From the NCBI RefSeq assembly GCF_016592555.1, contig NZ_AP014546.1:1553501-1617500 (forward strand): 64,000 bases of DNA, in the 5' to 3' direction. A program made the position numbers and the translations under genes. Positions within the stretch are counted from its first letter, which is position 1. Each line of letters begins with the position of its first letter. Below, piece by piece: positions 33,286 through 64,000 of this stretch. The DNA comes from Neptunomonas japonica JAMM 1380 (GTDB lineage Bacteria; Pseudomonadota; Gammaproteobacteria; Pseudomonadales; Balneatricaceae). The notes beneath the pieces are model-generated. The model ran no database searches. It was not told the DNA's origin and saw only the letters and a list, made by a program, of their open reading frames with translations.

Positions 33286-34272
33286 ATGCTATTTATTACG
33301 AATCGATTTCCCAAACAAAATATAGAAACTGAAATTGGCCGTATTTTTGACTTTGATCTTGAAAATAATGCGTCGAGTAATTCGGTGTTTTTCTGTGAGC
33401 GTACGGGCAAAAAAGAATACACTGAGATTGGCAGTATTGATTTTTTAACGCGTCTTAAAGAATCCAAATATCGTCAGGTTCTTATCTACATTCATGGTTT
33501 TTCTAATCTCCCCGAAGATGTTTTTGCTGGTGCACAGGAGTTCCGTGATCTGTGCGAGAAGCAAAAAAAGAAAGAAGTTTTGGTCATTCCGTTGATCTGG
33601 CCTTGTGATAATGATCTTGGCGTTGTTCAGGATTATTGGGATGACCAGAAAGCGGCTGATCAAAGTGGCTTTCCTTTTGCCCGCGTACTAGAGAAGTTCT
33701 TAGCATGGCGTAATGATGAAAAGCTAAACCCTAGTGATAACCCTTGCCTCAAACGCATTAACGTTTTGGCACACTCTATGGGTAACCGAGTCCTTCGCGA
33801 AACCCTATCGGTATGGAAGAAGTATGACCTTCCCCAAGGTGTGCCGCTCATTTTTAGAAATACCTTTTTAGTGGCAGCGGATGTGGTTAATGAAACACTA
33901 CACGAAGGTGAAAAAGGCGAGGTGATTTGCCATGCTTCGCGTAATGTTATTGTTTATCACGCCTCTGATGACCTCGCGTTACGTGCCAGTAAAATATCTA
34001 ACTTAAAAAACAAAATAGCTTCACGAAGGTTAGGGCATACCGGCCCCGAAAAAATTGATGAAACTCCGCAAAATGTCTATTCGGTAGATTGTGACGATGT
34101 CAACAACAGTTACGATAGACCTAAAGGCCACTCGTACTTTAGATCAGGCAGTAACAAAGGCTCACCGGGTAAAGTGTTCAAGCACATATTTGCGTGCTTG
34201 TTATCAGGGCGGGTGTTTCCTGATGATGAAGATCGCCGCACATCGATTATAAATTCAAAGAAAAAAAGCTGA
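33286..34272 (+). CDS. Alpha/beta hydrolase, DUF900-like
   Basis: The 328-aa protein has the core of DUF900-type serine hydrolases: RQVLIYIHGFSNLPEDVFAG (oxyanion region), ending strand LVIPLIWPC, the nucleophile elbow INVLAHSMGNRVLRE and a late His in KGHSYFRS. A conserved Asp is likely in VDCDD or YHASDD. No signal peptide is seen, so it is cytoplasmic or carried cargo. It has its own strong AGGAGG site and lies about 30 bp before the sigma-54 activator gene. Whether it belongs functionally to the eCIS is uncertain; it could be lipase-like cargo or an unrelated neighbour. Confidence 0.8.
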   Translation: MLFITNRFPKQNIETEIGRIFDFDLENNASSNSVFFCERTGKKEYTEIGSIDFLTRLKESKYRQVLIYIHGFSNLPEDVFAGAQEFRDLCEKQKKKEVLVIPLIWPCDNDLGVVQDYWDDQKAADQSGFPFARVLEKFLAWRNDEKLNPSDNPCLKRINVLAHSMGNRVLRETLSVWKKYDLPQGVPLIFRNTFLVAADVVNETLHEGEKGEVICHASRNVIVYHASDDLALRASKISNLKNKIASRRLGHTGPEKIDETPQNVYSVDCDDVNNSYDRPKGHSYFRSGSNKGSPGKVFKHIFACLLSGRVFPDDEDRRTSIINSKKKS

Positions 34273-34304
34273 CTTTAATTCGCACCTTCTAAAGGAGAAT
34301 AGAA

Positions 34305-35672
34305 GTGGATACGGGTCTGATAACAGTTGTACCTTTTTCGACACCAGAGCGTTTTAGTGAGTTAAAAGTGGCGTTAGATACCTTGCCATATAATATCAAT
34401 GTTATATGGCCAGAGGATTGGGCGCGCTTAACTCAAGCAGAGCTGGGCAGTGCGCTTGTGGTATTCATTTCTGAAGAGCAGGCATCAAATCTTGAGTTAT
34501 GCCAGTATTTTGATGAACTGGGAGGCCTTCCTAAATTATGTATTTTGGATGGCATTAGTGGCTTTAAACAGCGACGTATTATTGATCGCTGCCATGATGT
34601 GATGACATGGCCATGTAGCGCCGAAGAGATTAGTTATCGCTTTTGCCGGATGCTGGAAAACAACACTCAATCTGTAGGGGAGAAGTCTCTGGATGCCGAG
34701 CTTAAACAAGCTTTTATTCAGATGAACTTTATTGGTGAGTCTCCGGTTTTTTCACAAGCACTCTCGCGTATTCAAAAGGCTGCTAAGTATGATGTGTCTG
34801 TTTTGTTAATGGGTGAAACAGGCACAGGTAAAGAGCTAGCTGCCCGTGCTATACATTATATGGGAGGGCGTAATGCACAGCCTTTTATCCCAGTTAATTG
34901 TGGTGCATTGCCAGAAGAGATCTTTGAAAATGAGTTGTTTGGCCATTCACAGGGCGCTTATACGGATGCTAAAAAGAACCAGTTAGGGTTGGTCGCTCAG
35001 GCAGAAGGAGGGACGCTGTTCTTAGATGAGATCGACTCACTGTCTTTAAAATCTCAAGTAGCGTTGTTGCGTTTTTTACAAGATCATCAATATAGACCAT
35101 TAGGCTCACAAGGTTATGTGAAAGCTAATGTGCGCTTGCTTGCAGCAACCAATGCCGATTTGGCTGAATTGGCACAAGCCGGTACTTTTAGGGAAGATCT
35201 ATTTTATCGTCTCAATATTATGCAAGTCACCATGCCAGCTTTACGTGAACGTACTGATGATCTTCCTCTTTTAACGGACCACCTCATAAAGCGTTTTATG
35301 CTAGAACACGGCGGTGAAGATAAGCATTTATCTGCGGGTTGTTATGCATGGATGCGTCAGTATTTGTGGCCAGGTAATGTGCGTGAGTTGGAGAATGTTT
35401 TACTGCGAGCCTTTCTTGAAACAGAAGGTTCAGCAATTTTGTTATCGCCACCCGCACAATGGATTGAGGAAAATGAAAGCATTAATATTTCCGGTGTTAA
35501 TTGGGATGTGGATTACAACCAAGCTAAAAGCCTTGTTGTCGGCGCGTTCGAAAAAAATTACTTAATGCATGTACTTTCAAAAGCCGATGGCAATGTCTCA
35601 CGAGCCGCTAGGCTTGCCGGTAAAGAGCGGCGCTCGTTAGGTAAGTTAATCAAAAAGCATGGTCTCAGGTAG
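34305..35672 (+). CDS. Sigma-54-dependent transcriptional activator
   Basis: It starts at GTG 34305, with AAAGGAG at 34291-34297. Residues 1-135 form an atypical N-terminal sensory domain with a response-regulator-like feel (VVFISEEQASNL, VMTWPCSAEEI) but no clear phosphorylation site. The AAA+ domain has Walker A GETGTGKE (170-177), the sigma-54 contact loop as GAYTDA (217-222; consensus GAFTGA) and Walker B GGTLFLDEIDSL. The C-terminus is a Fis-type HTH (ADGNVSRAARLAGKERRSL). Such proteins bind upstream and activate sigma-54 promoters. It precedes the eCIS operon, so it is likely its regulator. Confidence 0.9.
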   Translation: MDTGLITVVPFSTPERFSELKVALDTLPYNINVIWPEDWARLTQAELGSALVVFISEEQASNLELCQYFDELGGLPKLCILDGISGFKQRRIIDRCHDVMTWPCSAEEISYRFCRMLENNTQSVGEKSLDAELKQAFIQMNFIGESPVFSQALSRIQKAAKYDVSVLLMGETGTGKELAARAIHYMGGRNAQPFIPVNCGALPEEIFENELFGHSQGAYTDAKKNQLGLVAQAEGGTLFLDEIDSLSLKSQVALLRFLQDHQYRPLGSQGYVKANVRLLAATNADLAELAQAGTFREDLFYRLNIMQVTMPALRERTDDLPLLTDHLIKRFMLEHGGEDKHLSAGCYAWMRQYLWPGNVRELENVLLRAFLETEGSAILLSPPAQWIEENESINISGVNWDVDYNQAKSLVVGAFEKNYLMHVLSKADGNVSRAARLAGKERRSLGKLIKKHGLR

Positions 35673-36004
35673 TTTTCTGCTCCTTCATTTTTTTATCTAG
35701 CGTTTATTTATCCCTAAGCATGGCGATATACCTCTCTGGGTTAAAAACAACCCACCTACACACGCTGTAACCCATGGCGTTATAAAACAACCCCACTTCA
35801 TACAAACATATGTATTAACTAAAGAATTCTTCAACCGTTAAATGCTAGCGCTTATCGCGCATAAGTTAACCGGGTTCCTTTTGCCCCACCTAAAACAACT
35901 GGTAATTATTAATTCATTAAAAATCAATACTTTATGTTTTGGTATGTATCTTGAATTGATTAAAAGAGTATCAACCTTGCTGTAACGAATATGAGTAGGC
36001 AGGC
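35673..36004. promoter_or_regulatory. Upstream regulatory region of eCIS operon
   Basis: A 332-bp A+T-rich gap between the activator and the first eCIS gene. Short inverted motifs, such as TGGGTT-6-AACCCA (around 35738-35755) and TAAC-7-GTTA (around 35767-35782), are possible activator sites. A candidate sigma-54 promoter is at 35940-35955. Confidence 0.45.
35940..35955 (+). promoter_or_regulatory. Candidate sigma-54 promoter
   Basis: TGGTATG-TATC-TTGAA resembles the consensus TGGCACG-N4-TTGCW with the correct GG-to-GC spacing (10 bp between), but the -12 element reads GA instead of GC. It lies about 50 bp before the first gene of the eCIS operon. Confidence 0.45.
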
Positions 36005-36274
36005 ATGCAAAACAACCACAGTGATGAGATCGAAATAATGCGCATCGCCAGTGAAATTAGACGCTACCTGGGTAATCACCCACAAGGGGTAGACACGATT
36101 GATGGCATTACAAAGTGGTGGTTGCCACAGCAGCGTATTGAAGAGTCATCTCTGTTAGTACAACAAGCGTTGGACTATCTGGTTTCAGAATCTCGTATAG
36201 AGCGCATAACTAGCTTAGACGGTAAGTACTTGTATTTTGACTCAAATTCAGTACATGGCGAGCAAAAACATTAA
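36005..36274 (+). CDS. Small winged-helix-like protein at start of eCIS operon
   Basis: The 89-aa protein (SDEIEIMRIASEIRRYLGNH, TIDGITKWWLPQQRIEESSL, VQQALDYLVSESRIERI, LDGKYLYF) has the helix-helix-wing pattern of a small winged-helix domain. Homologous-looking short genes precede sheath genes in other eCIS loci. It may be a regulator or an assembly factor; no experimental role is known to me. It is 27 bp before the sheath gene. Confidence 0.65.
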   Translation: MQNNHSDEIEIMRIASEIRRYLGNHPQGVDTIDGITKWWLPQQRIEESSLLVQQALDYLVSESRIERITSLDGKYLYFDSNSVHGEQKH

Positions 36275-36301
36275 TGCAATCAAAGGTAGAGGAGTAAGGA
36301 C

Positions 36302-38194
36302 ATGCCAGTTTCTCTCACATACCCCGGTGTTTATATTGAAGAGATCCCTAGCGGTGTGCGCACTATTGCGGGAGTCGCAACATCGATTACTGCCTTTGTT
36401 GGCTATACAAGTAAAGGCCCGCTAGATAAGGCTACGTTTATTAGTAGTTTTTCCGATTTTGAACGAAACCACGGTGGCTTACATCGAGATAGCCCACTCT
36501 CTTATGCGGTTCGGCAATTTTTTTCTAACGGTGGGAGTCAGGCTTATGTGGTGCGTGTTGCTTCAGGGCAAGCGGCCGCACGCTGGCAAATGAATGATGG
36601 CGCAGGCCCAGTGTTGGATGTTGTCGCATCGAGCTCTGGCGCGTGGGGTAATGATCTACGAATGAGTGTTGAGCATATCGGTACACGTAATCCTGATGCT
36701 GATTTTAATTTAGTGGTATCTCAAGTTGTGCTTTCAGGGGGCGTGCCTCAAACGGTAGTACTTGAAACACACCGTAACCTTAATCTTAATCCCAACTCGC
36801 CCAATTACGCGGTGGCAACGGTGAATGCTGAGTCTGCGTCGATTCAAGTAACGCAATCACCGTTAGTCTTTGCTGCTTCGGGGGTTGCTGTTAGTCAGGC
36901 TATTACGTTTCCTTTGGTACTAACTAATAATCTATTGTCAGGGGCAGTGGATGGAAGCGAGGCATTCTCGCTAATACTTACATCCAATCATGCTGATATC
37001 GGTGCATTAATAACAGATGTTAACTCAGCCATTACAACAGCGGGGCTTGCTACAAGAATGGTGGCTGTTGAGTCTGGCCTTGATGGTGATGTAACCGGCA
37101 ACGGCAGCTTACGGATAGGGTCTTTGGCGGTAAATGAGTCATCTTCAGTGGGTGTGGCCGTCGGTGATTCAGGAGGTTTAGCGTCGGTTATTGGCTTAGG
37201 TTTGGCCAGTGGCGGTCGTGAATTCACAGGTGATGCAGAGCATCGGCCGAACGTAGTTAGTGATCTGTTGCCGTTGAGTGTGGGCAATGATGGAAGTAAA
37301 GGCGGTGCACTTGAGCTTATCGGTAGCCCAGCGGCTAAAAGCGGGATATATGCATTGCTTGATGTTGACCTCTTTAACCTATTGTCGATTCCTGAAAGCC
37401 GAGACTTGCCACCGGTTCAGGCTGATCCATTAATCCAGGCAGGAATAAAGCTCTGCGAAGATGAGCGAGCTTTCTATATCGTTGACCCTCCAAGTGGCCA
37501 GATATTAACGAACATAGGTAGTTGGGCAAATGGTGTTTCTCAATCGCGCAATGCGGCGGTGTATTTCCCAGCTGTGCTGGTCTCTGATCCACTTGATAAC
37601 TTTAGGGCGCGTGCTATGGCTCCTTCAGGTTCTGTGGCAGGCGTCTTTGCGCGAACCGATAGCACGCGAGGTATTTGGAAAGCACCCGCAGGAACGGATG
37701 CAACCATAAATGGCGTGGCGGCTATTAGTCCTACGATGAATGATATTGAAAATGGCCAGTTGAATATTCTGGGTGTGAATGCACTTAGAACATTTCCGAC
37801 CTATGGGAAAGTGATTTGGGGATCACGAACGATGAAAGGTGCAGACGCGCAGGCTGATGAGTATAAGTATGTTCCAGTGCGCCGTTTAGTGCTGTTTTTA
37901 GAAGAGAGCTTATATCGCGGTACCCAATGGGTCGTGTTTGAGCCTAACGATGAGCCATTGTGGTCTCAAATTCGGCTGAACCTTGGTGCATTTATGCAGA
38001 ACCTTTTCCGCCAAGGGGCTTTTCAGGGAATGACACCGCGGCAGGCTTACTTTGTTAAGTGCGATAAAGAAACCACCACTCAGAATGATATTGACCGAGG
38101 TATTGTCAATATAGTGGTCGGCTTTGCCCCACTGAAACCTGCTGAATTTGTCATTATTAAATTCCAGCAGATCGCTGGCGAACTTGAGGTTTGA
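36302..38194 (+). CDS. eCIS contractile sheath protein
   Basis: The 630-aa protein begins VSLTYPGVYIEEIPSGVRTI and AGVATSITAFVGYTSKGPLD, the standard start of contractile tail sheath proteins. The C-terminal domain includes YGKVIWGSRTMKGADAQADE, YKYVPVRRLVLFLEESLYRG and NEPLWSQIRLNLGAFMQNLF. Residues about 95-330 form a variable inserted domain. The sheath surrounds the inner tube and contracts to drive it out. A GAGGAG site precedes the start. Only one sheath gene is seen in the window; Afp and PVC have several. Confidence 0.95.
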   Translation: MPVSLTYPGVYIEEIPSGVRTIAGVATSITAFVGYTSKGPLDKATFISSFSDFERNHGGLHRDSPLSYAVRQFFSNGGSQAYVVRVASGQAAARWQMNDGAGPVLDVVASSSGAWGNDLRMSVEHIGTRNPDADFNLVVSQVVLSGGVPQTVVLETHRNLNLNPNSPNYAVATVNAESASIQVTQSPLVFAASGVAVSQAITFPLVLTNNLLSGAVDGSEAFSLILTSNHADIGALITDVNSAITTAGLATRMVAVESGLDGDVTGNGSLRIGSLAVNESSSVGVAVGDSGGLASVIGLGLASGGREFTGDAEHRPNVVSDLLPLSVGNDGSKGGALELIGSPAAKSGIYALLDVDLFNLLSIPESRDLPPVQADPLIQAGIKLCEDERAFYIVDPPSGQILTNIGSWANGVSQSRNAAVYFPAVLVSDPLDNFRARAMAPSGSVAGVFARTDSTRGIWKAPAGTDATINGVAAISPTMNDIENGQLNILGVNALRTFPTYGKVIWGSRTMKGADAQADEYKYVPVRRLVLFLEESLYRGTQWVVFEPNDEPLWSQIRLNLGAFMQNLFRQGAFQGMTPRQAYFVKCDKETTTQNDIDRGIVNIVVGFAPLKPAEFVIIKFQQIAGELEV

Positions 38195-38205
38195 AGGAGT
38201 AAATC

Positions 38206-38736
38206 ATGGCTCAGTTTAGTGTTAATCCACAACGATTTGATCCCTACAAGAACTTCAAGTTTCGTGTGAGATGGGATGGCAAATATGTCGCAGGCATCAG
38301 CAAAGTAGGTGCGCTTAAGCGCACCAATGAACCGATCACTCATCGAGAAGGGGGAGACCCAAGCACCGAACGTAAGTCGCCGGGACAAACAAAATTTGAA
38401 GCAATCACGCTAGAGCGAGGCGTTACTCACGACAAAGAGTTTGAGCAGTGGGCCAATAAAGTATGGAACTTTGGCTCAGGTTTAGGCGCGGAGGTATCAC
38501 TCAAAGATTTTCGTAAAGATATCGTTATCGAGATGTATAACGAAGCGGGGCAGTTGGCCATCGCGTACAAGGTGTTCCGTTGTTGGGTATCTGAGTACCA
38601 AGCCTTACCCGAACTGGATGCCAGCGGTAGCGCTGTTGCGATTCAGTCCTTGAAGTTAGAAAACGAAGGTTGGGAGCGTGACTATGATGTGTCTGAGCCT
38701 GTTGAACCTGAATTTACAGAGCCTGCAGCTGGGTAA
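38206..38736 (+). CDS. eCIS inner tube protein
   Basis: The 176-aa protein has the T4 gp19-type tube pattern: FDPYKNFKFRVRWDGKYVAG, ISKVGALKRTNEPITHREGG, SPGQTKFEAITLERGVTHDK and VFRCWVSEYQALPELDASG. It stacks as hexameric rings that carry payload in the lumen. It lies 11 bp after the sheath gene. Confidence 0.95.
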   Translation: MAQFSVNPQRFDPYKNFKFRVRWDGKYVAGISKVGALKRTNEPITHREGGDPSTERKSPGQTKFEAITLERGVTHDKEFEQWANKVWNFGSGLGAEVSLKDFRKDIVIEMYNEAGQLAIAYKVFRCWVSEYQALPELDASGSAVAIQSLKLENEGWERDYDVSEPVEPEFTEPAAG

Positions 38737-38742
38737 TGGCTG

Positions 38743-39480
38743 ATGAAATCTCTAAACGCAGACGAGCTGCTTAATGTATGGGAGCAAGGGTTGAACCAGC
38801 CTTTGTTGCAACGTGCCTTAATGTTGTTGGCTGCTGCGTTTCCAGAAATAAAATCAGACAGTCTAGCAAAGTTGAGCATCGGGCAGCGCGACCTACTACT
38901 GATGCAGTTACGCGAGCGTTTGTTTGGGCAGTTACTGTTAAATAGGTCGGCATGCCCTGAATGCGATGAACAACTGGAGTGGCAAAATAACCTGTCTGAC
39001 TTCATGGTTCCTAATGGTAAACACGCCAGTGATCAACACTTTGAGCTTGAGAAAGATGCGTATCAACTGCAGTTCCGCTTACCCAATAGTTTGGATATTG
39101 CGGCGGTTGTAAACAGCAAGAGTGCATTATCAACACAGCAGCAATTGTTATCTCATTGTGTATTAGAGGTGAAACGTGAAGGCTCTGATTATGAACCTGA
39201 TCATTTACCGGAGACGATTGTTCAAGCTCTGATGGGGCGTATTGAGCAGTTAGATCCTCAAGCTGATATCCGCATTAATCTGGCATGCCCTGAGTGCTCT
39301 CATGAATGGACGGTATTGTTTGATATTGCCTGCTTTCTCTGGGAAGAGGTTAACGGCTGGGCTGAGCGTACGCTGCAAACCGTTTATAAATTGGCGGTGG
39401 GATATGGCTGGAGTGAGCAAGAGATCTTGAGTCTTAGTCCTGTTCGCCGGCAACTCTATCTAGGGATGATGGGGGCATAA
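38743..39480 (+). CDS. T4-type baseplate chaperone-like protein with two CPEC motifs
   Basis: The 245-aa protein carries two zinc-like knuckles: ACPECDEQLEWQ and ACPECSHEWTV, around residues 68 and 182. Helical segments (RALMLLAAAFPEIKSDSLAK, RDLLLMQLRERLFGQLLL) precede the first. This matches T4-type baseplate hub assembly chaperone-like proteins found after the tube gene in eCIS loci. A role in assembly rather than in the finished particle is inferred. Confidence 0.7.
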   Translation: MKSLNADELLNVWEQGLNQPLLQRALMLLAAAFPEIKSDSLAKLSIGQRDLLLMQLRERLFGQLLLNRSACPECDEQLEWQNNLSDFMVPNGKHASDQHFELEKDAYQLQFRLPNSLDIAAVVNSKSALSTQQQLLSHCVLEVKREGSDYEPDHLPETIVQALMGRIEQLDPQADIRINLACPECSHEWTVLFDIACFLWEEVNGWAERTLQTVYKLAVGYGWSEQEILSLSPVRRQLYLGMMGA

Positions 39481-40400
39481 TGGATTTTATTCAAAGCTTA
39501 ATGACGCGCAACCAAACCGATAATGCTCAGACACATACGCTGTCTGGTAATAGGCTTATCGTGCAACCGCGACAGCCATTAAGGTTTGAAGAAAAAAGCT
39601 TAAAAGAAACTGCTCAGGTGCCTGTACAAGAGCATGACTCGCCACATATAAGGAGTGAGTTATCCGCAAACATGCGGCCACAAGAGCAAAGCAGCCTTGA
39701 GCCAAATAAAACAGTCCCTGTACATAATCTCTCTAGTCTAGAAACAATTAAAAAAATCCCTGAGCTTAATTTATACAGTGCTGATGTTAAGACTAACTCT
39801 TTGGAGAAAAACCAAGAGCCGCTTTTTAATAACTCAATTGAATCTTCTTTTTCTAAAGGTTCGTTTGATGGGCCATTTTCTGCACCATTTATTCGCAATA
39901 ATGGAAAAACAAAACCAGTATCGCAAGAGAAACCATTATCAGAAGAGAAGCAGCCGCCGCTGATCGTTGATCATGCTCTTAATCAACGTATTCAAACCGT
40001 CCTTCAGAGCTTAAGTACAAACACACATACCGTCACAAATATAAGTACGGACGATCAATTACCTCTACGTGAGCCAGTTAAGCTTGCTAGCCAGCCAGCT
40101 AGTTCTGTATTGGGCAAGCCTGATGTTAAACGGCAAGCACTCAGCGAGCAGAATATATCGACTGGAGAATTACAAACACCAGACTGGTTGGCAGAGCTGC
40201 GCTCTGGGTTACAGCAGCGCTGGCAGGCACAGAATCAAGTTGCAAATGTTGAACCGGTGATCAATGTCACCATTGGGCGTGTTGACGTACGTGCCGTAAC
40301 AGAGAGTACAGCCCCACAGGTTAATACGAGTAAAAAGCCAGTGAGTACCATGACACTGGAAAGTTATTTAGAGCAGCGTGATCGCCGGAGGCAGGGATGA
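39480..40400 (+). CDS. Disordered hypothetical eCIS protein
   Basis: The 306-aa protein is low-complexity: rich in Ser, Gln, Asn, Pro and Lys over residues 15-220 and without predicted domains. The last 90 residues (TPDWLAELRSGLQQRWQAQN, PVINVTIGRVDVRAV, TMTLESYLEQRDRRRQG) are more ordered; the motif INVTIGRVDVRA followed by LxxYLxxR is common at the end of small proteins in this position in eCIS loci. Function unknown. It overlaps the DUF4255 gene by 4 bp. Confidence 0.65.
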   Translation: MDFIQSLMTRNQTDNAQTHTLSGNRLIVQPRQPLRFEEKSLKETAQVPVQEHDSPHIRSELSANMRPQEQSSLEPNKTVPVHNLSSLETIKKIPELNLYSADVKTNSLEKNQEPLFNNSIESSFSKGSFDGPFSAPFIRNNGKTKPVSQEKPLSEEKQPPLIVDHALNQRIQTVLQSLSTNTHTVTNISTDDQLPLREPVKLASQPASSVLGKPDVKRQALSEQNISTGELQTPDWLAELRSGLQQRWQAQNQVANVEPVINVTIGRVDVRAVTESTAPQVNTSKKPVSTMTLESYLEQRDRRRQG

Positions 40401-43677: not shown

Positions 43678-43943
43678 GTATTAATTTGCATATCGAGACG
43701 CTGGTGTTGAATGGAATTGATGTTCAGGCGCACCAGACACAAGCGCTCAATACCGCCTTGGTGCTTGCACTGAAGGCCAAACTACAGGAGCAGCGAGTGT
43801 CTCAAAGGAGCGCAACAACATTACTGCCCTTCATATCCAACCCATATGTTAAAACCCATCCTATTTTCATTAACAGCAGCCAAAGTGCCAGAGATGTTGG
43901 TGAAAAAATTGGTAATGCGGTGTATTGGGGGATCAGACAATGA
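43674..43943 (+). CDS. Small eCIS-associated protein
   Basis: The 89-aa protein (NLHIETLVLNGIDVQAHQTQ ... DVGEKIGNAVYWGIRQ) has the IExLVLxG start and GxxIGNAVYxG end that recur in short genes preceding DUF4157 genes in eCIS loci. It overlaps both neighbours. Function unknown; a chaperone for the DUF4157 protein is a guess. Confidence 0.7.
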   Translation: MSINLHIETLVLNGIDVQAHQTQALNTALVLALKAKLQEQRVSQRSATTLLPFISNPYVKTHPIFINSSQSARDVGEKIGNAVYWGIRQ

Positions 43944-44905: not shown

Positions 44906-44933
44906 TGAATCAACTTAAGATTGGGAAAAGCTA

Positions 44934-46640: not shown

Positions 46641-46729
46641 CGTCGAGAGTGGTTATGTGGTGAGTTTTAATAGTCAGTCGTTCGCATAGAAAATATAAGG
46701 ATTGATAACAGTTAGCGGTTAGGAGGCAT

Positions 46730-49231: not shown

Positions 49232-49244
49232 GAGTGATACCTGG

Positions 49245-51898: not shown

Positions 51899-51899
51899 T

Positions 51900-52220: not shown

Positions 52221-52222
52221 CA

Positions 52223-52588
52223 ATGACTCAGCATGTTCACTTTCCCTTACAGTTTGATGGCCGTGGCCGAACCCGTGATGATGACGAGGCATTATGGATT
52301 CGAGGTTTAATCGAACAGGTTCTATTTACTGTGCCGGGTGAGCGAGTCATGCGACCGGATTTTGGTAGTGGCTTGCGAGAGTTAGTTTTTGCACCCAATA
52401 GCCCTGAGCTTGCCGCTACTACTCAGTTTTTGGTTCAAAGTGCGCTGCAGCAATGGATGGCTGATCTTATTACCGTTGAATTGGTCGAGATTGATGTGGC
52501 TGATTCGCGCTTATCTGTGAATATTCAGTATTCGATTCGTCGTACGGGTATGCGTTATCAGGAAAACTTCCAACAAGGAGGTGGCTAA
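52223..52588 (+). CDS. GPW/gp25-like baseplate wedge protein
   Basis: The ATG at 52223, 2 bp after the PAAR gene stop, is used; a frame back to 52157 runs into that gene. The 121-aa protein has GLIEQVLFTVPGERVMRPDF, GSGLRELVFAPNSPELAATT and ITVELVEIDVADSRLSVNIQ, the gp25 fold. gp25 joins wedge to sheath and starts sheath assembly. Confidence 0.93.
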   Translation: MTQHVHFPLQFDGRGRTRDDDEALWIRGLIEQVLFTVPGERVMRPDFGSGLRELVFAPNSPELAATTQFLVQSALQQWMADLITVELVEIDVADSRLSVNIQYSIRRTGMRYQENFQQGGG

Positions 52589-55161: not shown

Positions 55162-58100
55162 TGAGCGGACATAACAGTAATAAGTCTGATTGTGGTTGCT
55201 GCAGTGGTGTGAATGCAATAACGCCGCGCCGATTACATAATCCACCGGGGCTGCTGCAATTCACTTACCGGGTCGGCAGGCACAAGGACTTTTATGAGTC
55301 TATACAAGCCCGTTTATCAAGTGAAAAATATCCTGCATTGGCTGCGCTTACTACACGTGAGAGTAGTGATTTCACTATTGCTATCGCCGATGGGTTGGCG
55401 TGCTCATTGGACGTGTTGAGTTTTTATACTGAGCGTTTTGCACATGAACATTATTTAAGAACAGCAACCGAGCGTTTATCGGTAGGTGAGATGGCGCGAC
55501 TTATTGGTTACCAATTGGCCCCTGGGGTTGCTGCTAGTACACATTTAGCATTTACGCTTCAAAGCGTGCCGGGTTTAGTCGCACCTGCGATTGACATTCC
55601 AATTGGCACTCGCGTGCAAAGCGTACCAGGGCAAGATGAACAAGCACAAACATTTGAGACCGTTTCGTTAGCCAGGGCCCGTGCTGAATGGAATGCAATA
55701 AATGTCCAACAGAATGAATTTAAAACACCTGTATTTGGCGATACTCAGCTGTGGTTAGAGGGAATTGATACAGGACTGATAGTGGGGGACTTAATTCTCA
55801 TAGTGGGCGCTGAGCAGGAGCGAGATCCGCAGGGAGAGCGTTGGGATGTAAGAGTAATAACCGCGCTAGAGATCGACACAGCGCGTAGTTTGACAAGAGT
55901 GAGTTGGCAGCTAGGGCTTGGCCATTCGCGGCCTTTTGTATTACCCGCCCATGAAAGTGTTCAGATTTATACTTTTCGAACACGTGATGCGGCATTTGGT
56001 CATATTGCTCCAGACTGGCGAAGCTTGTCAGATGATAGTAAGGCTGACTACATTGGGCTGTTAGGTGCTGATGAGCTTAAGCGGCCAGAAGATACACAAG
56101 AGTGGCCAGACTTTAGCGTGCGCGCTCCTGTTTTTCCTGAGCGGCGTAGTGGCAGCGCTGAGTTATCTGAAACACTCATCGCAGCCACCGTCGATGACAT
56201 TGTTCTCGCTGCTAATAGCGCCGCCCATGGTGCCGCCGCGATGGCTATGCATCGAGCCGCGACTGCAGGTACGGGTGTGGTGATGGCGGGTGGGAAAATT
56301 GCTGAGGGAGCCATGAGCATGGCACGTGAAAGTGCTGAAGGGCTCTCTGAGGTGGCGAATTTAGCCGTGAATGAGGTTACTCAACGTGCACGTACATTGA
56401 TTCTTGCTCAGGGCCAGTCCTTACAAGCGCTACAAATCAATGGCAACGACTTGATAAAGGTATTCGCTCGGGATTTTTATCAGCAAGGTATTGCCGACAG
56501 CCTTGTGGGCTTACCTAATAAAGTTCATGAGCTTGCTGAGCAAGGTTTGATTCATCGCCTTGATATTGCAAAAGCCGTTTTAGATGATTTGATCAATACG
56601 TTGAGCAATGGGCAGGGGAGCTTTCCAGTAGCAGTACTGCCAGGCTTGGAGCAGGTATGGAAGGACGCTGTTGATGAGGCTGTTCAGGCTATAACTGATG
56701 TGAAGTCTGATTTAGACGGTAGTAATAATTGGTTCGAAAGCGCCGTCAATGCTTTAGATAATTTGGATGAAGGGTTGGCAGGAGCTACAGCAGCATTGCA
56801 GCAAGTGTCTTCTGAAGTTGGCAATATACCCTCAAGTGTAAATTTGAGCTCTACTGCATCTATTATGGGAGAAGTGGTTGACCAGATAAGAAGCTCAATA
56901 GGTGAGGAACTCACAAATGCAGATTTTTCGGACTTAGTTAACCTTTCTGGGATATTTACAGACGTGAGACTATGGACGGAAGGGTTGTTTGCTGCCGGGT
57001 CTGATATTGCCCAATTGATTAAAAAATTACAGGATGAAATCGCTAATTCTGCTGGCGTTATGTTTTCCAAATTAGGGCAAGATGTTGCCAAAATGGCACG
57101 CGAAGCACAGTCAGGTATCACTGATACAGCTGCGTTGCTTAATCCCGCGCAGGCATTAGTAGCATTAGGTGATGCTGCTTTAGAGATGAAAGAACTTACT
57201 CATTCTGCGGGAGTGGCTGCATTGGGTGCAGCGGCGGCCGCTGATGTTGCTGCGCTTGTCAGTACAGCCGTGACCATTGCGCGTAATTTGCCTGCTCCTT
57301 TCCCGCCTGCAACCCCTGAAAGTATTGCTGAAGTTGCACGCCATTTTGCAGCGGTTGGGGTTATGCGTGCAGGCGGCCCCCCCATCAGTGAATCTACTTC
57401 AGGCACTATGATGGCTCAAATAGAGTCGATTATGCCGACATCCTTGCAGGTGCCGCTTGAGTTGGTTGAGCAGCTGTTACCGATGGTTGAAGATGCTGAG
57501 GCGCTACTGAATGCGCCTCGACATGCTGCTGAGACTGCTTATCAAAGTATTGTTGTTGATGTAGATCGGGCTCTCGTAGGTAAAATTGTGGTCGCTTCTG
57601 GTCGGCGGGCCCCATTAGTTCGTACCCCTGATGAGATTGATCTGAGCCGTGTGCATGATTCGGTGGTCGCCGGTGGTTGGGCATTGTTGTCGGTGCCTAA
57701 CTCCATTGAGCTGTATAAAATCAATAGCGCGGTGGCAGCGAGCCGCGCTGAATATTTAATGTCAGGGCAAACTACTCGGCTAGGGTTAAAAGGCGAGCTA
57801 CCTGAGGGACGTTTACCCAGCGAATTTGAACATGCGGTTCGTAGTTTGAGCGTGCATGTAGATAGTGAAGAGCTACCGCTTGCACATGTTCCACTTGATT
57901 TCCCGGTTTATGGTGAGGCTATTGCCTTGGCCGGGCATGTCGAAGAGTTAACACCTGAACAACCACTCGCAATAAGTGGTAAACGTCAGCGGATTATAAT
58001 GCAAAGAGGTATTGCGAACCTTGTACTGTACTGTGAGGACGGCACAGACCGGCCGTTAGTAGAAGGTGACAGCCTGATGCTAATGGCAGCGCCACTGCGT

Positions 58101-59462
58101 TTGAGCAGCGGTACCCCCAGTTATTTATCCCCCAGAAGTTTTGCACGGCTAATAGGCAGAAGAGGTATTAGATTTCAGCTGACGTTGAAAGACCGAGATG
58201 CATGTATCGGACAGGTGGAACTCAGTAGTGCAGATTTCATGTTGGATGCTGAGCGTGAAGACGACCCTGTTATCTCTGAAGTCGTCTTTTTAGTGGGCAA
58301 CGATGATGCAGTGACTCATGATCGTGATCGTAGCTATTTAAAATTAACAAGTGCGACACAGCATGTTTACGCAAGAAATAGCACACGGATCAATGCCAAC
58401 GTTGCTCCAGCCACTCATGGTGAGTCGGTTGAAGCTATCTTGGGCAGTGGTGATGGTGGCCGGGCTGATCAAAGCTTCGAGCTGAATCAGAAACCGCTGA
58501 CCTATACCAGTGCCAACACGCCTAGCGGGCGCAGTTCAACATTAGAGCTGCGGGTAAATGATGTTCTGTGGTCAGAAGTGCCTATGTTACACGGCACTTC
58601 CCCAGATGCTCGCGTCTATGAGACGCTTCACAGTGATGATGCAGTTACAAAGATAAGCTTTGGTGATGGCAGTGAAGGCGCGCGTTTACCCAGTGGCGAG
58701 AGTAATGTTCGGGCTAGCTATCGTAAAGGTATTGGTACGGCGGGTAATGTTGATACAGCCCAACTTACTACCTTATTGTCACGTCCGCTTGGTGTAAGTG
58801 AAGTGGTTAACCCTGAAGCGGCTACCGGTGGCGAGAATGCTGAGTCATTAGTCCGAGCCAGAAGCAATGCCCCACTAACGGTACTTACACTTGAACGTGT
58901 TGTTTCAGAAGATGATTACGCCAATTTTTCTCGTGCTTTTGCTGGTATTGATAAGGCGCATGCTTTGTGGATTCCGGTGGGCCCGGCTCGGGGTATGTTT
59001 CTAACTATTGCAGGTATTGATGGCGCAGCTGTCCCAGAAAACAGTGATACATTTCGTAACTTACGTGATGCATTGGTTACGTACGGAGACCCTTTGGTAC
59101 CGTTACGTATCGCTAACTATGTGCAGGTACGTTTTCGTTGCCGTTTGTCAATCAAAGTAGAGGCAGGGCATGAAGTAGAAAGGGTGCTTGATAGCGTTGA
59201 TGCTGCTTTGCGTACCCATTTTGGTTTTGCTCAACGCACCCTTGGGCAAACAGTATCCGCTGATGAAGTAATCGCGGTTGCACAGGCTGTAATTGGAGTG
59301 GAAGGTGTGCACCTGACTCGCTTGAACCGCCTTTCAGCGGCTACATCTTCTGTTGAACCGCGTTTGTTTGCAACCTTGCCGGTCGCCTCCCTTATTGAGC
59401 AGCCTTCGCCTGGTGAAATGCTAACGATATCGGATGATATAGAGCTGGAGGTGCTGCCATGA
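55158..59462 (+). CDS. Large baseplate assembly protein with long helical insertion
   Basis: The 1434-aa protein starts with a J-like domain (NPPGLLQFTYRVGRHKDFYE, IADGLACSLDVLSFYTERFA, LSVGEMARLIGYQLAPGVAA) and ends with another (ISFGDGSEGARLPSGESNVR, RKGIGTAGNVDTAQLTTLLS, VVSEDDYANFSRAFAGIDKA). Between them, residues about 330-797 are an Ala-rich, almost wholly helical insertion (AANSAAHGAAAMAMHRAATA; ALGAAAAADVAALVSTAVTI) that is unusual for a wedge protein. No obvious separate tape-measure gene is found, so the insertion deserves attention. Overlaps both neighbours. Confidence 0.88.
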   Translation: MMSGHNSNKSDCGCCSGVNAITPRRLHNPPGLLQFTYRVGRHKDFYESIQARLSSEKYPALAALTTRESSDFTIAIADGLACSLDVLSFYTERFAHEHYLRTATERLSVGEMARLIGYQLAPGVAASTHLAFTLQSVPGLVAPAIDIPIGTRVQSVPGQDEQAQTFETVSLARARAEWNAINVQQNEFKTPVFGDTQLWLEGIDTGLIVGDLILIVGAEQERDPQGERWDVRVITALEIDTARSLTRVSWQLGLGHSRPFVLPAHESVQIYTFRTRDAAFGHIAPDWRSLSDDSKADYIGLLGADELKRPEDTQEWPDFSVRAPVFPERRSGSAELSETLIAATVDDIVLAANSAAHGAAAMAMHRAATAGTGVVMAGGKIAEGAMSMARESAEGLSEVANLAVNEVTQRARTLILAQGQSLQALQINGNDLIKVFARDFYQQGIADSLVGLPNKVHELAEQGLIHRLDIAKAVLDDLINTLSNGQGSFPVAVLPGLEQVWKDAVDEAVQAITDVKSDLDGSNNWFESAVNALDNLDEGLAGATAALQQVSSEVGNIPSSVNLSSTASIMGEVVDQIRSSIGEELTNADFSDLVNLSGIFTDVRLWTEGLFAAGSDIAQLIKKLQDEIANSAGVMFSKLGQDVAKMAREAQSGITDTAALLNPAQALVALGDAALEMKELTHSAGVAALGAAAAADVAALVSTAVTIARNLPAPFPPATPESIAEVARHFAAVGVMRAGGPPISESTSGTMMAQIESIMPTSLQVPLELVEQLLPMVEDAEALLNAPRHAAETAYQSIVVDVDRALVGKIVVASGRRAPLVRTPDEIDLSRVHDSVVAGGWALLSVPNSIELYKINSAVAASRAEYLMSGQTTRLGLKGELPEGRLPSEFEHAVRSLSVHVDSEELPLAHVPLDFPVYGEAIALAGHVEELTPEQPLAISGKRQRIIMQRGIANLVLYCEDGTDRPLVEGDSLMLMAAPLRLSSGTPSYLSPRSFARLIGRRGIRFQLTLKDRDACIGQVELSSADFMLDAEREDDPVISEVVFLVGNDDAVTHDRDRSYLKLTSATQHVYARNSTRINANVAPATHGESVEAILGSGDGGRADQSFELNQKPLTYTSANTPSGRSSTLELRVNDVLWSEVPMLHGTSPDARVYETLHSDDAVTKISFGDGSEGARLPSGESNVRASYRKGIGTAGNVDTAQLTTLLSRPLGVSEVVNPEAATGGENAESLVRARSNAPLTVLTLERVVSEDDYANFSRAFAGIDKAHALWIPVGPARGMFLTIAGIDGAAVPENSDTFRNLRDALVTYGDPLVPLRIANYVQVRFRCRLSIKVEAGHEVERVLDSVDAALRTHFGFAQRTLGQTVSADEVIAVAQAVIGVEGVHLTRLNRLSAATSSVEPRLFATLPVASLIEQPSPGEMLTISDDIELEVLP

Positions 59463-61552
59463 GTTTTGATGCACAAAAACTATTTGAATTGTTGCCGGCT
59501 ATTCACCGTATCCGTGATGCCGAACTGGCTAAGTCTCTTGGTCTTGAACGTGGCCCATTAGAAGAGTTAGTTGCTGTATTGGCCGAGCAAATTGATGTGG
59601 CAGAGGAGAGCCTAGACCAGCTTTACGATGACCTCTTTGTTGAGACGTGTGCTGACTGGATAGTGCCTTACATAGGAGACCTCATTGGATACCATAGTTT
59701 ACATAACGTAGTCGCTAAGGTAGCAAGCCCACGAGCAGAAGTGGCACATACGATTGCATTACGACGGCGTAAAGGTACAGCGCTGGTACTTGAACAATTA
59801 GCACGGGATGTAACGGCGTGGGATGCGCGCGTGGTTGAATATTTTCAGCGTATTAATACCACGCAATATATGAATCATATAAGGCCGCATAATTTACAAT
59901 CACCCGATCTTCGTAAAAGTGAAGCGCTTGAGTGGATTGGAACAGGATTTGAAACGGCTAACCGGACTATTAATGTTCGTCGTGTAGAGTCTCTTGGGCG
60001 CCATAATATACCGAATATTGGGTTGCATCTGTGGCGTATAAAAGCCTATCCACGTTCTCAAACGCCTGCTTATCGTGCTGGCCCGCATCGATACTTCATA
60101 AACCCGCTTGGTTATGACGCACCTCTATACAATCACCCGCAAGCAGAAGATGACATTAGTCATTTAGCTGAACCAGATAATGTTCCCCTGCCGTTATCTC
60201 GGCGGCGTATGCACCGGTATTTGGAACGCTATGTTGCCCAGCGCCCCAGTGTTGGCGAGCCGCTGGATAATCCAACGCCCAGTGTTGTGCTCAGAGTTGA
60301 TGGTGTGATGATTGAACGAGATAAAATTCGAGTCTGTAACTTAAGCGACGAGGGTGCTACGTGGGCAAATATGCCACCATCCTCAGGAAATTATGCCATC
60401 GATCCTGCACTTGGCCGCGTAGCATTACCGGCGGATGTGAATGATCCTACCGATGTGCGTTTGACGTGGTATGAAGGTTTCAGCACGGATGTGGGCGGTG
60501 GCGAATATGAGCGAGGCGAAAGCTTGCCAACGCCTTTAGAGGGTACACAACTAGTACGCGTGCCGGATGACCACTCAACACTGGCCGCGGCGTTATTGGA
60601 TATTAGTGGTGATGGTGTCATTGAGATTACTGATAACAGCCGTTATAGCGAGAGCTTAGAGATAAATGTGGTCGCAAATGGTCATGTGGAAATTCGTGCA
60701 ATGAATAATCGTCGACCCGTGCTGGAGTTGGCTGGGATGATAATCCGTGGTGATAGTAATAGTAGTTGCACGTTAAATGGGTTGTTAATGAGTGGAGCGC
60801 CGATGGTGATTCCTGATGAGCTGGGGAATGCCCTTTCTCAGCTTCATATTTTGCATACTACATTAGTTCCAGGTATCGCATTAAACGCTAACGGCTCTCC
60901 ACAGCACAGTGGTGAGGCGAGCATAGAGAGCGCGCTTACTGGGCTGAAAATACAAATTACTCGCTCGATTATCGGTGCCGTTAGAACGCATGCGCGTAGC
61001 CAGGTAGATGCTGAAGATAGTTTTATCGATGCGAATATGCCTGAAAATGTTGCTTTTGCTGCTGCTGATGGAGAAGCCTCGGGAGCTGAGTTATCACTTG
61101 TTGCCTGTACGGTGGTGGGCAAGGTGCATGCGAGTGAGTTTTCATTAGTATCAAATAGCATTTTATTTTCAGCACTGGCTAGCGGCGATAGTTGGATTAG
61201 TCCCGTTAGAGTGGTGCGTAAACAAGCGGGGTGTGTGCGCTTCTCTTGGCTGCCATTTAATTCGATTGTGCCTGCACGTTATCGTTGCCAACCTGATTCG
61301 CTACAGGCTGCGCAGAGTATCGTTCCGCATTTCACTTCTCTTCATTACGGTACGGCTGCTTATGGTCAGCTATCCAGCAGCACTGCAGATCAAATTGTGC
61401 GTGGTGCAGATGATGAAAGTGAAATGGGTGCATTTCATCATTTATATGCTTCTCAGCGTGAAACTAACTTGCATATTCGTTTGGCAGAATATTTGCGGGT
61501 AGGCATGAGCGCCGGAATTTTTTTACGAATCGTGAGGGAGTACAGATTATGA
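59459..61552 (+). CDS. Phage tail protein I-like baseplate protein with beta-helix tail
   Basis: The 697-aa protein begins with a tail-protein-I-like region: LFELLPAIHRIRDAELAKSL, YDDLFVETCADWIVPYIGDL and LRRRKGTALVLEQLARDVTA. Residues 350-600 contain repeated beta turns (LEINVVANGHVEIRAMNNRR, LELAGMIIRGDSNSSCTLNG), a right-handed beta-helix-like domain. It overlaps the next gene (ATGA at 61549). It likely forms the outer wedge that carries fibres. Confidence 0.85.
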   Translation: MSFDAQKLFELLPAIHRIRDAELAKSLGLERGPLEELVAVLAEQIDVAEESLDQLYDDLFVETCADWIVPYIGDLIGYHSLHNVVAKVASPRAEVAHTIALRRRKGTALVLEQLARDVTAWDARVVEYFQRINTTQYMNHIRPHNLQSPDLRKSEALEWIGTGFETANRTINVRRVESLGRHNIPNIGLHLWRIKAYPRSQTPAYRAGPHRYFINPLGYDAPLYNHPQAEDDISHLAEPDNVPLPLSRRRMHRYLERYVAQRPSVGEPLDNPTPSVVLRVDGVMIERDKIRVCNLSDEGATWANMPPSSGNYAIDPALGRVALPADVNDPTDVRLTWYEGFSTDVGGGEYERGESLPTPLEGTQLVRVPDDHSTLAAALLDISGDGVIEITDNSRYSESLEINVVANGHVEIRAMNNRRPVLELAGMIIRGDSNSSCTLNGLLMSGAPMVIPDELGNALSQLHILHTTLVPGIALNANGSPQHSGEASIESALTGLKIQITRSIIGAVRTHARSQVDAEDSFIDANMPENVAFAAADGEASGAELSLVACTVVGKVHASEFSLVSNSILFSALASGDSWISPVRVVRKQAGCVRFSWLPFNSIVPARYRCQPDSLQAAQSIVPHFTSLHYGTAAYGQLSSSTADQIVRGADDESEMGAFHHLYASQRETNLHIRLAEYLRVGMSAGIFLRIVREYRL

Positions 61553-64000
61553 CTTTCGATCTAAGCCGCATTCGTTTTGATGCCCGTAAGGATTTCTTGG
61601 GCGTCGTCATGCAGCAAGGCCGTGTCCAATTGGACTCTGATTGGAACGAGTGGGTCGCGCAATTGGCGCGCCGCCTACAGGCAGGCACGTTAGATACGTT
61701 CAATGGAAGCGTTGTTCCACGCACAACGCATGATGGTTTTCTTATTGAGGCAACGGGTGGCGCGCTGAGTATTGGCGCTGGGCGTATCTATGTTGATGGC
61801 TTATTAGCTGAAAATCATGGTGGTCCACCCCATGTTTGGAATGCACAACTGGCCGAACTGAACGGTACTGCAAGCGTTGATTTTACTCGTCAGCCTTATC
61901 GACGTGCCTATCCATCTGAGAGCTTTGATCGTGACCCATTACTAGGTGGCGGGCCTCATCTAGTGTATGTGGATGTGTGGCAGCGCGATGTGAGTGCATT
62001 GCAGCAGCCCGATCTCATTGAATCAGCTATAGGTGTGGATACAACAGGGCGCCGACAAACCGTATGGCAAGTCAAGGTGTTGGAAGATGTAGGCAATATT
62101 TCAAAAGATACCTTAGATGAAGATATTCGCGGTTGGCGTGAAGTAATAGCGCCTTCAGCTGGGCGCCTAACAACGACAATTAGTGCACCGCCAGTAGAGG
62201 AAGGTAATCCATGTTTGATAACTCCTGATGCCGGGTATAGAGGGTTAGAAAATCAACTCTATCGGGTTGAAGTGCATACAGGAGGGCCTTTGGGTGTCGC
62301 TACTTTTAAATGGTCTCGTGATAATGCTACGGTTGCTTCGCGTGTGACACATATTAACTCCGAGCGTGACAGAATCACGCTAGAGAGTATTGGCCGTGAT
62401 GATCTACTGCGTTTTAATGATGGCGATTGGGTTGAAGTGACTGATGACTGGCGTGAGCTGAACAACTTACCCGGGGAGCTACGTCGTATTCGAACAGGAG
62501 GTGGTGTTGATGAGACTGCCCGTACCCTTACATTTGATCAGCCTTTACCGGCTGAGCCTACGAGTAGTGCAGACTCTAGCCATTTTCCTGTGGGCGGTAA
62601 TAATGCCACAGATCCTAAACGTAATACGCGGGTTGTTCGTTGGGATCAATCAGGCGTAGTACGTCGTGAAGATGGCAGTGACGTTCATAACTTAAATAGC
62701 CCGTCCAGTGCTGGAGATATCGTTATTCCGTCATTGGCCAACGGTATATTTCTTGAACACGGTATTGTGGTGTCTTTTGATCTGGACTCAAATCCAGACC
62801 TATACCCTTCAGGAGGTGAATTTAAAAGTGGAGATCACTGGGTATTTGCTGCACGCAGTACAGATGCCAGTATTGAGCTGCTTGATAAGGCTGCTCCGTT
62901 AGGCATACACCATCACTTTGCACGATTAGCGCGTGTTGATTTTCCTAATAACGAAACAGATTTTAGAACTCTATGGCCCGCTATTCTTGATGGAGAGGAT
63001 TGTAGTTGTACGGTGTGTGTGACTGTTGAAAATCATAATAATGGCACAGCAACTATTCAACAGGCGATCGACACTATCAAAGATACCGGAGGTTCCATCT
63101 GTTTGGGCATTGGTACTTATAATATCGATCGTCCTTTAAGCATGACAGGTGCACGCTCGTTGACAGTAAAAGGTCAAGGGTGGGCTTCTTTGCTGGTGGG
63201 GACTGAACCAGGTGAGATTTTGGAAATTGCGGACTGCAAAGGTGTAACACTTGAAAACTTTACGGCTATCGCGTCGGCGGGTAAGTCGGGTACTAGCAGT
63301 GTAATTGCTGCACATAATGTTGTTGATTTACACCTTGATCATATCAACATACTTGGGCTTGCGGTTGAGCGTAGTACCAGTATCGGTATTGGCCTGTCAG
63401 GTTTGATTTTAGGCGCGAATATTAACCAATGTGTCATTGTTGCTGAGCGTGGGGTCGCCACTGTTACGACAGGAAAACGTAATTTTGTGATGACAGTTGA
63501 GCTTTGTATAGAAAAAAACCTGATGTTCTGTAGTCAACGGGCAATAAGCTTTGATGCAATTAGCATGCACTTTGGCAACACTCATATCGCTACAAATCTA
63601 ATGCTAGCGGGTAGTGATGCCGCACTTGTTATCACCGGCACTGTGTTAGAGCGTTCCAAGATGATTCTTACTGACAATACGATAACTAGTAGCGGTGATG
63701 GTATACGAGCTGGTGTGGGATCTTTAACGATCAGAAATAATAAAATAAGTGGTGCCGGTAAGAAGAGTGGTCATGGGGTTGTATTACAACAAGGACTTGG
63801 CCCGGGCCCCATTGATCAGGTTAGTATTACGGCTAACAGTTTGTCGTTATTAGATGGCAATGCTGTGGCGGTTAATGCTCGAATGCAAGCTATTACAATC
63901 GCAGATAACAGTATTGAAAAAATTGGCCTTGGCGCTTTGGTCATGAGTGAAGATGCTAGCGCTGAGTTGATGCTGATACGAGGGAATCGGTGTCATCATC
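61549..64000 (+). CDS. DUF6519-like protein with right-handed beta-helix (3' partial)
   Basis: The frame is open from ATG 61549 to the window end (817 codons, no stop). The N-terminus (FDLSRIRFDARKDFLGVVMQ, QGRVQLDSDWNEWVAQLARR) is the DUF6519 signature found in eCIS loci after the wedge genes. The second part, from ATIQQAIDTIKDTGGSICLG, is a beta-helix with turns such as LTVKGQGWASLLVG and VDLHLDHINILGL, followed by TIRNNKISGAGKKSGHGVVL. It may be the baseplate-attached receptor-binding or fibre base protein. No tail-fibre gene is visible in the window. Confidence 0.85.
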   Translation, partial: MTFDLSRIRFDARKDFLGVVMQQGRVQLDSDWNEWVAQLARRLQAGTLDTFNGSVVPRTTHDGFLIEATGGALSIGAGRIYVDGLLAENHGGPPHVWNAQLAELNGTASVDFTRQPYRRAYPSESFDRDPLLGGGPHLVYVDVWQRDVSALQQPDLIESAIGVDTTGRRQTVWQVKVLEDVGNISKDTLDEDIRGWREVIAPSAGRLTTTISAPPVEEGNPCLITPDAGYRGLENQLYRVEVHTGGPLGVATFKWSRDNATVASRVTHINSERDRITLESIGRDDLLRFNDGDWVEVTDDWRELNNLPGELRRIRTGGGVDETARTLTFDQPLPAEPTSSADSSHFPVGGNNATDPKRNTRVVRWDQSGVVRREDGSDVHNLNSPSSAGDIVIPSLANGIFLEHGIVVSFDLDSNPDLYPSGGEFKSGDHWVFAARSTDASIELLDKAAPLGIHHHFARLARVDFPNNETDFRTLWPAILDGEDCSCTVCVTVENHNNGTATIQQAIDTIKDTGGSICLGIGTYNIDRPLSMTGARSLTVKGQGWASLLVGTEPGEILEIADCKGVTLENFTAIASAGKSGTSSVIAAHNVVDLHLDHINILGLAVERSTSIGIGLSGLILGANINQCVIVAERGVATVTTGKRNFVMTVELCIEKNLMFCSQRAISFDAISMHFGNTHIATNLMLAGSDAALVITGTVLERSKMILTDNTITSSGDGIRAGVGSLTIRNNKISGAGKKSGHGVVLQQGLGPGPIDQVSITANSLSLLDGNAVAVNARMQAITIADNSIEKIGLGALVMSEDASAELMLIRGNRCHH

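Follow-up and report, generated by a model that had tools for sequence, protein, structure and literature searches.

The genome of Neptunomonas japonica JAMM 1380 carries, in the 64,000-nucleotide stretch considered here (contig NZ_AP014546.1, positions 1,553,501 to 1,617,500 of the forward strand; the window, numbered from its first nucleotide), an extracellular contractile injection system (eCIS) that, as judged from its genes alone, is real and has a single sheath. The parts of the machine are ordinary for the lineage; what is new is a cassette, including a dedicated activator, that lies ahead of the sheath gene. We put at roughly three in four the probability that the structural operon is turned on by this dedicated sigma-54 cassette. 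From the genes, the clade to which the activator belongs, the DNA sites, their spacing and their recurrence, all of them read from sequence, we infer how it would work. The bacterial enhancer-binding protein (bEBP) encoded just upstream would bind 16-bp dyads of the form GGGT-N8-ACCC, ~60 and 194 bp before a -24/-12 promoter, and, through looping, reach the sigma-54 RNA polymerase and open the promoter; transcription would then pass through a small winged-helix gene and on along the operon to the sheath, tube and baseplate genes. The same cassette would drive eCIS in other phyla and type VI secretion systems (T6SS) with a fused TssBC sheath in some Pseudomonadota.

A dedicated activator had been part of the original prediction, and it is now backed by clade, helix signature, dyads and promoter statistics. 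Its gene (34305-35672; all window features named below lie on the + strand) specifies a bEBP with a sigma-54-interacting AAA+ domain (PF00158) and a Fis-type helix-turn-helix (HTH; PF02954), with the C-terminal helix AGKERRSLGKLIKKHGL; the genome also has rpoN (one PF04552 match, E 1e-70). The N domain has a receiver-like (beta-alpha)5 fold in an AlphaFold2 model, for which Foldseek returns NtrX, NtrC1 and FleQ. As read from the alignment, this domain lacks both the acidic phospho-site and the conserved lysine, and the bEBPs of several relatives start directly at the AAA+ domain; for both reasons, activation probably depends on how much activator is present, or on a ligand, and not on a kinase. 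Sensing of cyclic di-GMP, prompted by FleQ and VpsR among the fold matches, was considered and dropped: FRSSR, a FleQ-like motif, is not seen in this bEBP.

The candidate -24/-12 promoter TGGTATGTATCTTGAA (35940-35955) matches 9 of 11 consensus positions and is located 362 bp before the sheath ATG. The distal dyad GGGTTAAAAACAACCC (35738-35753) is perfect and centred 194 bp before the -24 element; the proximal dyad GGGTTCCTTTTGCCCC (35872-35887), centred 60 bp before it, has one mismatch. All three are conserved islands in three Neptunomonas. The promoter deviates by a C to A change after the -12 G, and a changed base there recurs in a T6SS relative (TGGCACGTATCTTGAA) and in genome G401, which has a 10/11 site, TGGCATGTCTCTTGTA, at the same place. 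Two perfect GGGT-N8-ACCC dyads are found in the 64-kb window, against 0.35 expected. The strict sigma-54 pattern is uninformative alone, with 40 matches across the whole window against 46 expected; the dyad is not enriched genome-wide (20 sites against 23 for a control pattern) and alone does not predict targets.

It is in the company of its relatives that the arrangement acquires weight. In the first sample, the window was compared with the best 80 of the 241 relatives found, and sites were scored as the best match, over 11 positions, to TGGCAY-N5-TTGCW in the 700 bp before the sheath (three of the 80, with the sheath start missing or at a contig edge, are excluded from the promoter count). 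A bEBP gene ending <3.5 kb before the sheath gene on the same strand is found in 26 relatives and in the window; sites scoring at least 10/11 accompany 22 of these 27 loci and 3 of the 51 that lack the upstream bEBP. Fourteen of the 27 are Nitrospira, and outside Nitrospira the fraction is 8/13. Carriers of the cassette include Nitrospirota, Acidobacteriota and Pseudomonadota. By hand count, 28 of the 80 relatives come from Cyanobacteria (14), Chloroflexota (10), Archaea (3) and Actinomycetota (1), and none of these 28 loci has the cassette. Sigma-54 is mostly absent from these groups; a search for Sigma54_DBD agrees with that distribution, its 4 positives among 14 control genomes including no cyanobacterium, archaeon or actinobacterium.

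The dyad emerges de novo from the same kind of comparison. When 38 of 51 cassette loci were searched (the weak locus L118 and 12 near-duplicates, chiefly from Nitrospira, being left out), GGGT-N8-ACCC was recovered in 23 of the 38 upstream regions, each the 260 bp before the promoter; shuffled sequences reach at most 3. Perfect dyads lie 58-83 and 139-194 bp before the -24 element, plus one at 104 bp. Nitrospira loci have GCGG-N8-CCGC instead, in 14/14 cases at 67-70 bp and again at 139-142 bp, although these loci are close relatives and are not 14 independent cases. The reading helix differs in parallel: most non-Nitrospira cassette bEBPs carry the HTH signature AGKERRxxGKLxKKxGI or a sequence near it, a signature that the genome's 13 other bEBPs all lack, and the Nitrospira counterpart (GKERRSFQRLLRK) reads AGKERRSFQRLLRK(Y/H)GI, with one example ending in YEI.

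Promoter and dyad were also counted as a pair, with the sigma-54 consensus fixed beforehand. A strict pair (a site of at least 10/11 with a perfect dyad 30-240 bp upstream) occurs in 20/28 loci of the first set and 14/23 of the second, against 0/2,836 control windows drawn at random from these loci. With the criteria loosened to 9/11 and one mismatch, a pair occurs in 27/28 and 18/23 loci, against 94/2,836 windows. All of these rates are optimistic for the dyad, the cores of which were derived from overlapping loci that were later counted. Three held-out loci (L009, L010 and L039) combine an 11/11 promoter with a fetched stretch in which no bEBP and no winged-helix gene is seen. Among the 50 loci of this kind, these three alone have a perfect dyad no more than 800 bp from the sheath gene, its centre 116, 129 and 165 bp, respectively, before the -24 element. 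Each of the three genomes has a signature bEBP elsewhere, as its best match to the contractile injection system (CIS) profile; the coordinates suggest that it lies at the far end of the same cluster, and in the L039 genome a winged-helix gene adjoins it.

The first gene after the window promoter, not named in the original prediction, lies between activator and sheath genes (36005-36274) and specifies an 89-residue winged-helix protein that is identified by profile and has no Pfam match. The family (~90 residues, signature YL..HP.A.DT.EGI..WWL) is without a Pfam model: of 17 members, at most 2 are matched by any one Pfam family (best E 0.0094). The AlphaFold2 model has a pLDDT of 80, and the best PDB match by Foldseek is at E 4e-3, none falling below 1e-3. 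In a large protein database, the profile has 220 matches at E 1e-6, and the names among the 120 listed are mostly 'hypothetical protein'. Counting the window, 28 loci have the gene, and in 27 of these the fetched stretch also contains a bEBP; conversely, 27 of the 28 loci with a bEBP have it. The sole exception, L074, has a bEBP that lacks the helix signature and groups with ordinary bEBPs. One locus, L067, has the winged-helix gene and no nearby bEBP; the best bEBP of its genome (460 bits) lacks the helix signature and so is not counted.

What the winged-helix protein does can be read in two ways. It may be a co-regulator, possibly feeding back on the same promoter. It might instead serve contractile machines as a structural component or in assembly, and follow the promoter merely because of operon order, as would fit its position upstream of sheath or Pvc16 genes in several machine classes and its conserved residues (HP, D, G and WW around helix 2, then L, L and Y, with no basic run). 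The fold itself speaks for a regulator, and so does distribution: the gene is found in 26 of 27 relatives with the bEBP and in 1 of 53 without it (L067), thus tracking the regulator rather than the machine. An assembly role is accordingly the less attractive assignment, and we regard it as doubtful, with something under one chance in three left to it.

The cassette is not confined to eCIS. A second sample was assembled by searching whole genomes with the winged-helix profile alone, which gave matches in 4/398 genomes of the phylum, 5/57 relatives, 8/390 of the order and 13/369 of the class (overlapping draws, the window's own genome being counted in each) and 24 distinct other genomes, of which one, G398, had also entered the first set, as L005. 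In 19 of the 24, the 330 bp upstream of the winged-helix gene contain a sigma-54 site scoring 10/11 or better. Downstream of it there is a fused TssBC T6SS sheath in nine (the two examined both show VipA, VipB and VipB_2 domains) and there are eCIS-type genes in twelve. The twelve comprise six with a sheath found by tblastn, three with a Pfam sheath (L119, L121 and L094), two with a Pvc16 protein only (L117 and L120) and L122, counted by its likeness to L121; in L094 and L095 the sheath gene does not follow the winged-helix gene immediately. The remaining three are L118 (a weak match, 47 bits, with no injection genes), L124 (contig end) and L123, which precedes secreted proteins. In L123 (genome G861), a bEBP, perfect dyads, an 11/11 promoter and the winged-helix gene stand ahead of secreted proteins that look by eye like PEP-CTERM proteins; no injection genes are seen on its 11 kb contig.

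In a quick maximum-likelihood tree of 49 bEBPs (13 near copies, fragments and duplicates excluded), the 35 cassette bEBPs form one clade, with a support of 99 in the SH-like approximate likelihood ratio test (SH-aLRT), apart from the 13 other bEBPs of this genome and from that of L074. Labelling the tree by T6SS or eCIS requires two changes, with the T6SS entries nested in the broader eCIS group, an arrangement consistent with the cassette having passed from one kind of machine to the other, in either direction. A broader reading, to which we give only slightly better than even odds, is that a portable sigma-54 switch, made up of this bEBP lineage, the 16-bp dyad, the -24/-12 promoter and the winged-helix gene, has, across three phyla or more, either stayed with contractile machines that are unrelated to one another or passed from one to another of them, the machines being single-sheath eCIS, Pvc16-first eCIS, two-sheath CIS and fused-TssBC T6SS. 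In Nitrospira, dyad and reading helix would have changed as a pair, and the injector would share its regulation with unlinked targets, for example a secreted PEP-CTERM matrixin. Those odds are lowered by the bEBP being seen in only 5 of the 9 T6SS stretches.

Several observations weigh against cassette control, in the window or more widely. The AAA+ loop of the window bEBP is GAYTDA, not GAFTGA (relatives have GAFTDA, GAYTSA, GAYTDA or GAFTGA). The window's 9/11 promoter score is equalled in 18 of 100 shuffles, and the window fails the strict pair test, as do 7 more of the first 28 loci and 9 of the second 23; six loci (L078, L095, L097, L118, L122 and L126) fail even the loose one. In the first set, the strict pair is found in 14/14 Nitrospira and only 6/14 others, and to this the optimism of the pair rates must be added. 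No winged-helix match accompanies the promoter, dyad and bEBP in the genomes of L009 and L010. The bEBP tree was quickly made, and there are long branches in its non-cassette part. In the second sample, a bEBP is found in the fetched stretch at only 15 of 24 loci, sometimes on the opposite strand (four of the nine loci without one were viewed as 3.2 kb stretches only). Finally, 21 of the 80 relatives, from sigma-54-capable groups, have no winged-helix gene, no bEBP and no pattern of the L009/L010/L039 kind (some are at contig edges); eCIS thus does not need the cassette.

The counterproposal that draws on these points is that the eCIS is transcribed from another promoter, of the sigma-70 type, while the bEBP next to it has its targets elsewhere and the window's -24/-12 match is fortuitous. 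The score of the window site and its frequency in shuffles favour it, as does the absence of the winged-helix gene from 25 of 52 relatives from sigma-54-capable groups (hand count). It sits poorly with the perfect dyad at 35738, with the conservation of dyads and promoter in three Neptunomonas and the better site at the same place in G401, and with a strict pair that occurs in G401 and many relatives and never in the control windows. We consider it unlikely, at about one chance in six.

Control by the cassette may extend to a second target, at least as far as its DNA sites indicate. Of the 19 other dyads in the genome, 18 were considered (all except that at window 1053), and one is accompanied, at the expected spacing, by a site scoring 10/11 or better. 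It lies before a gene for a 243-residue matrixin with a PEP-CTERM tail (genome 3514145-3514873, minus strand; 9143-9874 of L168). The matrixin orthologue of the cassette carrier G398 has two perfect dyads and a 10/11 site; the orthologues in G399 (54% identical) and G404 (67%), genomes without the winged-helix gene, have no dyad-promoter pair, and G401 has the cassette and no matrixin match. Control of the matrixin by PrsR is also possible, since there is a true PrsR in the genome and the matrixin dyad contains TTTACA, part of the PrsR motif as given in the available text of PMC1569441. That the window bEBP is itself a PrsR-like PEP-CTERM regulator lying beside the eCIS by chance, as its second-best NCBIfam match (TIGR02915), the dyad and -24/-12 site of the matrixin and the cassette ahead of PEP-CTERM-like secreted proteins in G861 might suggest, is very improbable given that it falls far below the TIGR02915 cut-off (278 against 502.6 bits), that the true PrsR (691 bits) is elsewhere in the genome and that 21 of the 24 loci found through the winged-helix gene precede injection-system genes.

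The machine that the cassette would control is as predicted: core eCIS components on one strand, in genes that mostly overlap or abut, were confirmed with Pfam, NCBIfam and PHROGs, and a PF04984 search of the 4.1 Mb, single-contig genome finds one sheath gene. The sheath (36302-38194; PF17482 and PF04984), of which the closest named relative is that of N. japonica DSM 18939 (93%), is thus of the PF04984/PF17482 type and not a TssB/TssC (VipA/VipB) T6SS sheath. It is followed by the gp19 tail tube (38206-38736; PF06841), a T4_baseplate-family protein (38743-39480; PF12322 and phrog_150), a 306-residue protein (39480-40400), a Pvc16-like cap (40397-41602; PF14065) and a Pvc15-like AAA+ ATPase with a winged-helix domain (41599-43677; PF00004 and PF22977). 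These, with gp25 and J-like baseplate proteins and two eCIS_core (DUF4157) proteins, are the marks of an eCIS. No phage head genes appear among the family matches to operon open reading frames (ORFs scanned from 33286 to the window end, very small ones excluded). NCBIfam and PHROGs recognise no Afp14-like tape-measure gene in the visible part of the cluster, which continues past the window's right end. The 306-residue protein, which has no match in Pfam, NCBIfam or PHROGs, a conserved position and weak matches in some relatives, is by its place the best tape-measure candidate.

Three genes that follow are candidates for cargo, on the evidence of domain and place. One eCIS_core protein (43925-44905; PF13699) has, by eye, a hydrophobic C terminus; a second (44934-46640; PF13699 and PF14252) is joined to DUF4347 and has C-terminal GHG and GCN residues that we take to be reminiscent of clan CD cysteine peptidases. 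The third, inside the structural operon, is an S8 subtilase (46730-49231; PF00082) with a P domain in two stretches (PF01483), which is found in two other Neptunomonas (95% and 85%) and not in the remaining fetched stretches, most of which end ~10 kb past the sheath.

Beyond the candidate cargo lie a CIS_tube tube-like adaptor (49215-49901; PF19266), a LysM protein (49898-50260; weak NCBIfam and PHROGs matches), a gpD-like hub (50253-51392; NF033848, VgrG_rel, at E 2.3e-6, below cut-off; relatives in L023 and L049, that of L023 having no GPD domain by Pfam), a gpV-like spike (51389-51898; PF04717, Phage_base_V), a DUF4280/PAAR-like tip (51900-52220; PF14107 and PF05488, both below cut-off), the gp25 wedge (52157-52588; PF04965) and two baseplate J-like proteins (52588-55161 and 55158-59462; TIGR02243 in each). 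The gpD, LysM and PAAR assignments combine weak matches with position. A sequence search against solved structures gives one J-like chain for the second J-like protein (E 2e-9), one weak match for CIS_tube (E 0.23) and no match for gpD. The last two genes specify a 697-residue protein without a match in the same three family collections (59459-61552; baseplate- or fibre-associated by place; 72% in L099) and a protein that by eye is beta-helix-like (61549-64000; a weak tail-spike PHROG; 73% in L099), whose frame is open past the window end and of which 817 residues fall inside.

The prediction had also made much of a hub and spike split into separate genes. The separate genes are there, but the split is not special, and it is ruled out as a novelty: CIS_tube and LysM are separate ORFs in 10/10 relatives in which both could be placed, and gpD and gpV in 2/2. 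Geobacter sulfurreducens likewise has separate 'Phage protein D' and 'Phage tail spike protein' genes (GSU0982 and GSU0983), as listed in the available part of PMC10599522. Of the mobile neighbours that were claimed, a siphovirus-like prophage on the left stands (approximately window 1-25500; replication initiator, terminase, portal, major head, tape measure and tail fibre J among 10 ORFs scanned); nothing shows the eCIS itself to be mobile, and to the right of the cluster, which lies upstream of it, is an rRNA operon (23S, then 5S, the latter at 16058-16173 of L002). A DUF900 alpha/beta hydrolase (33286-34272; PF05990, E 4.9e-16) ends 33 bp before the activator gene, with which it may share a transcript. 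It stands beside the activator only in three Neptunomonas loci (96% in L005, 89% in L098), and it has no match in the 79 other relatives' loci compared.

With activator, dyad and promoter named, regulation of such a machine becomes directly testable and, in our judgement, offers a genetic handle on inducing conditions, Nitrospira included. The same cassette ahead of a T6SS would mean that injection systems exchange regulation as well as parts. No report of sigma-54 control of eCIS was found in the literature searched, in which subscription papers are mostly outside coverage; papers pairing contractile injection systems with sigma54 or RpoN concern, by their titles, T6SS or other subjects, and the available text of a Geobacter RpoN regulon paper mentions phage in its references only. 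The eCIS regulators named in the accessible part of Geller 2021 are GerE, BTAD and RfaH, with sigma-54 not among these.

In its components, the locus resembles the environmental eCIS (the eCIStem/dbeCIS type; Anabaena tCIS, Streptomyces CIS and the Nitrospira clusters), which have one sheath gene, eCIS_core proteins, a Pvc16 cap and a Pvc15-like ATPase; tCIS, as described in the available text of PMC8894136, has a VgrG-like spike (Cis8) and a LysM domain within Cis7, whereas in the window these are split. In its proposed control, it resembles the PrsK/PrsR PEP-CTERM regulon, for which the accessible text of Haft 2006 (PMC1569441) describes a similar enhancer motif ~63 nt before a -24/-12 site and a cognate bEBP assigned by co-occurrence; there, however, motif 1 ends in TTTACA and PrsR has a partner kinase, and the window bEBP falls below the family cut-off. 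VasH-type control, as far as the sources at hand describe it, is likewise a matter of a bEBP and sigma-54 driving a contractile machine, and is known for T6SS. The window cassette differs from it in serving, as we propose, both eCIS and fused-TssBC T6SS, and in having a winged-helix first gene and a shared dyad.

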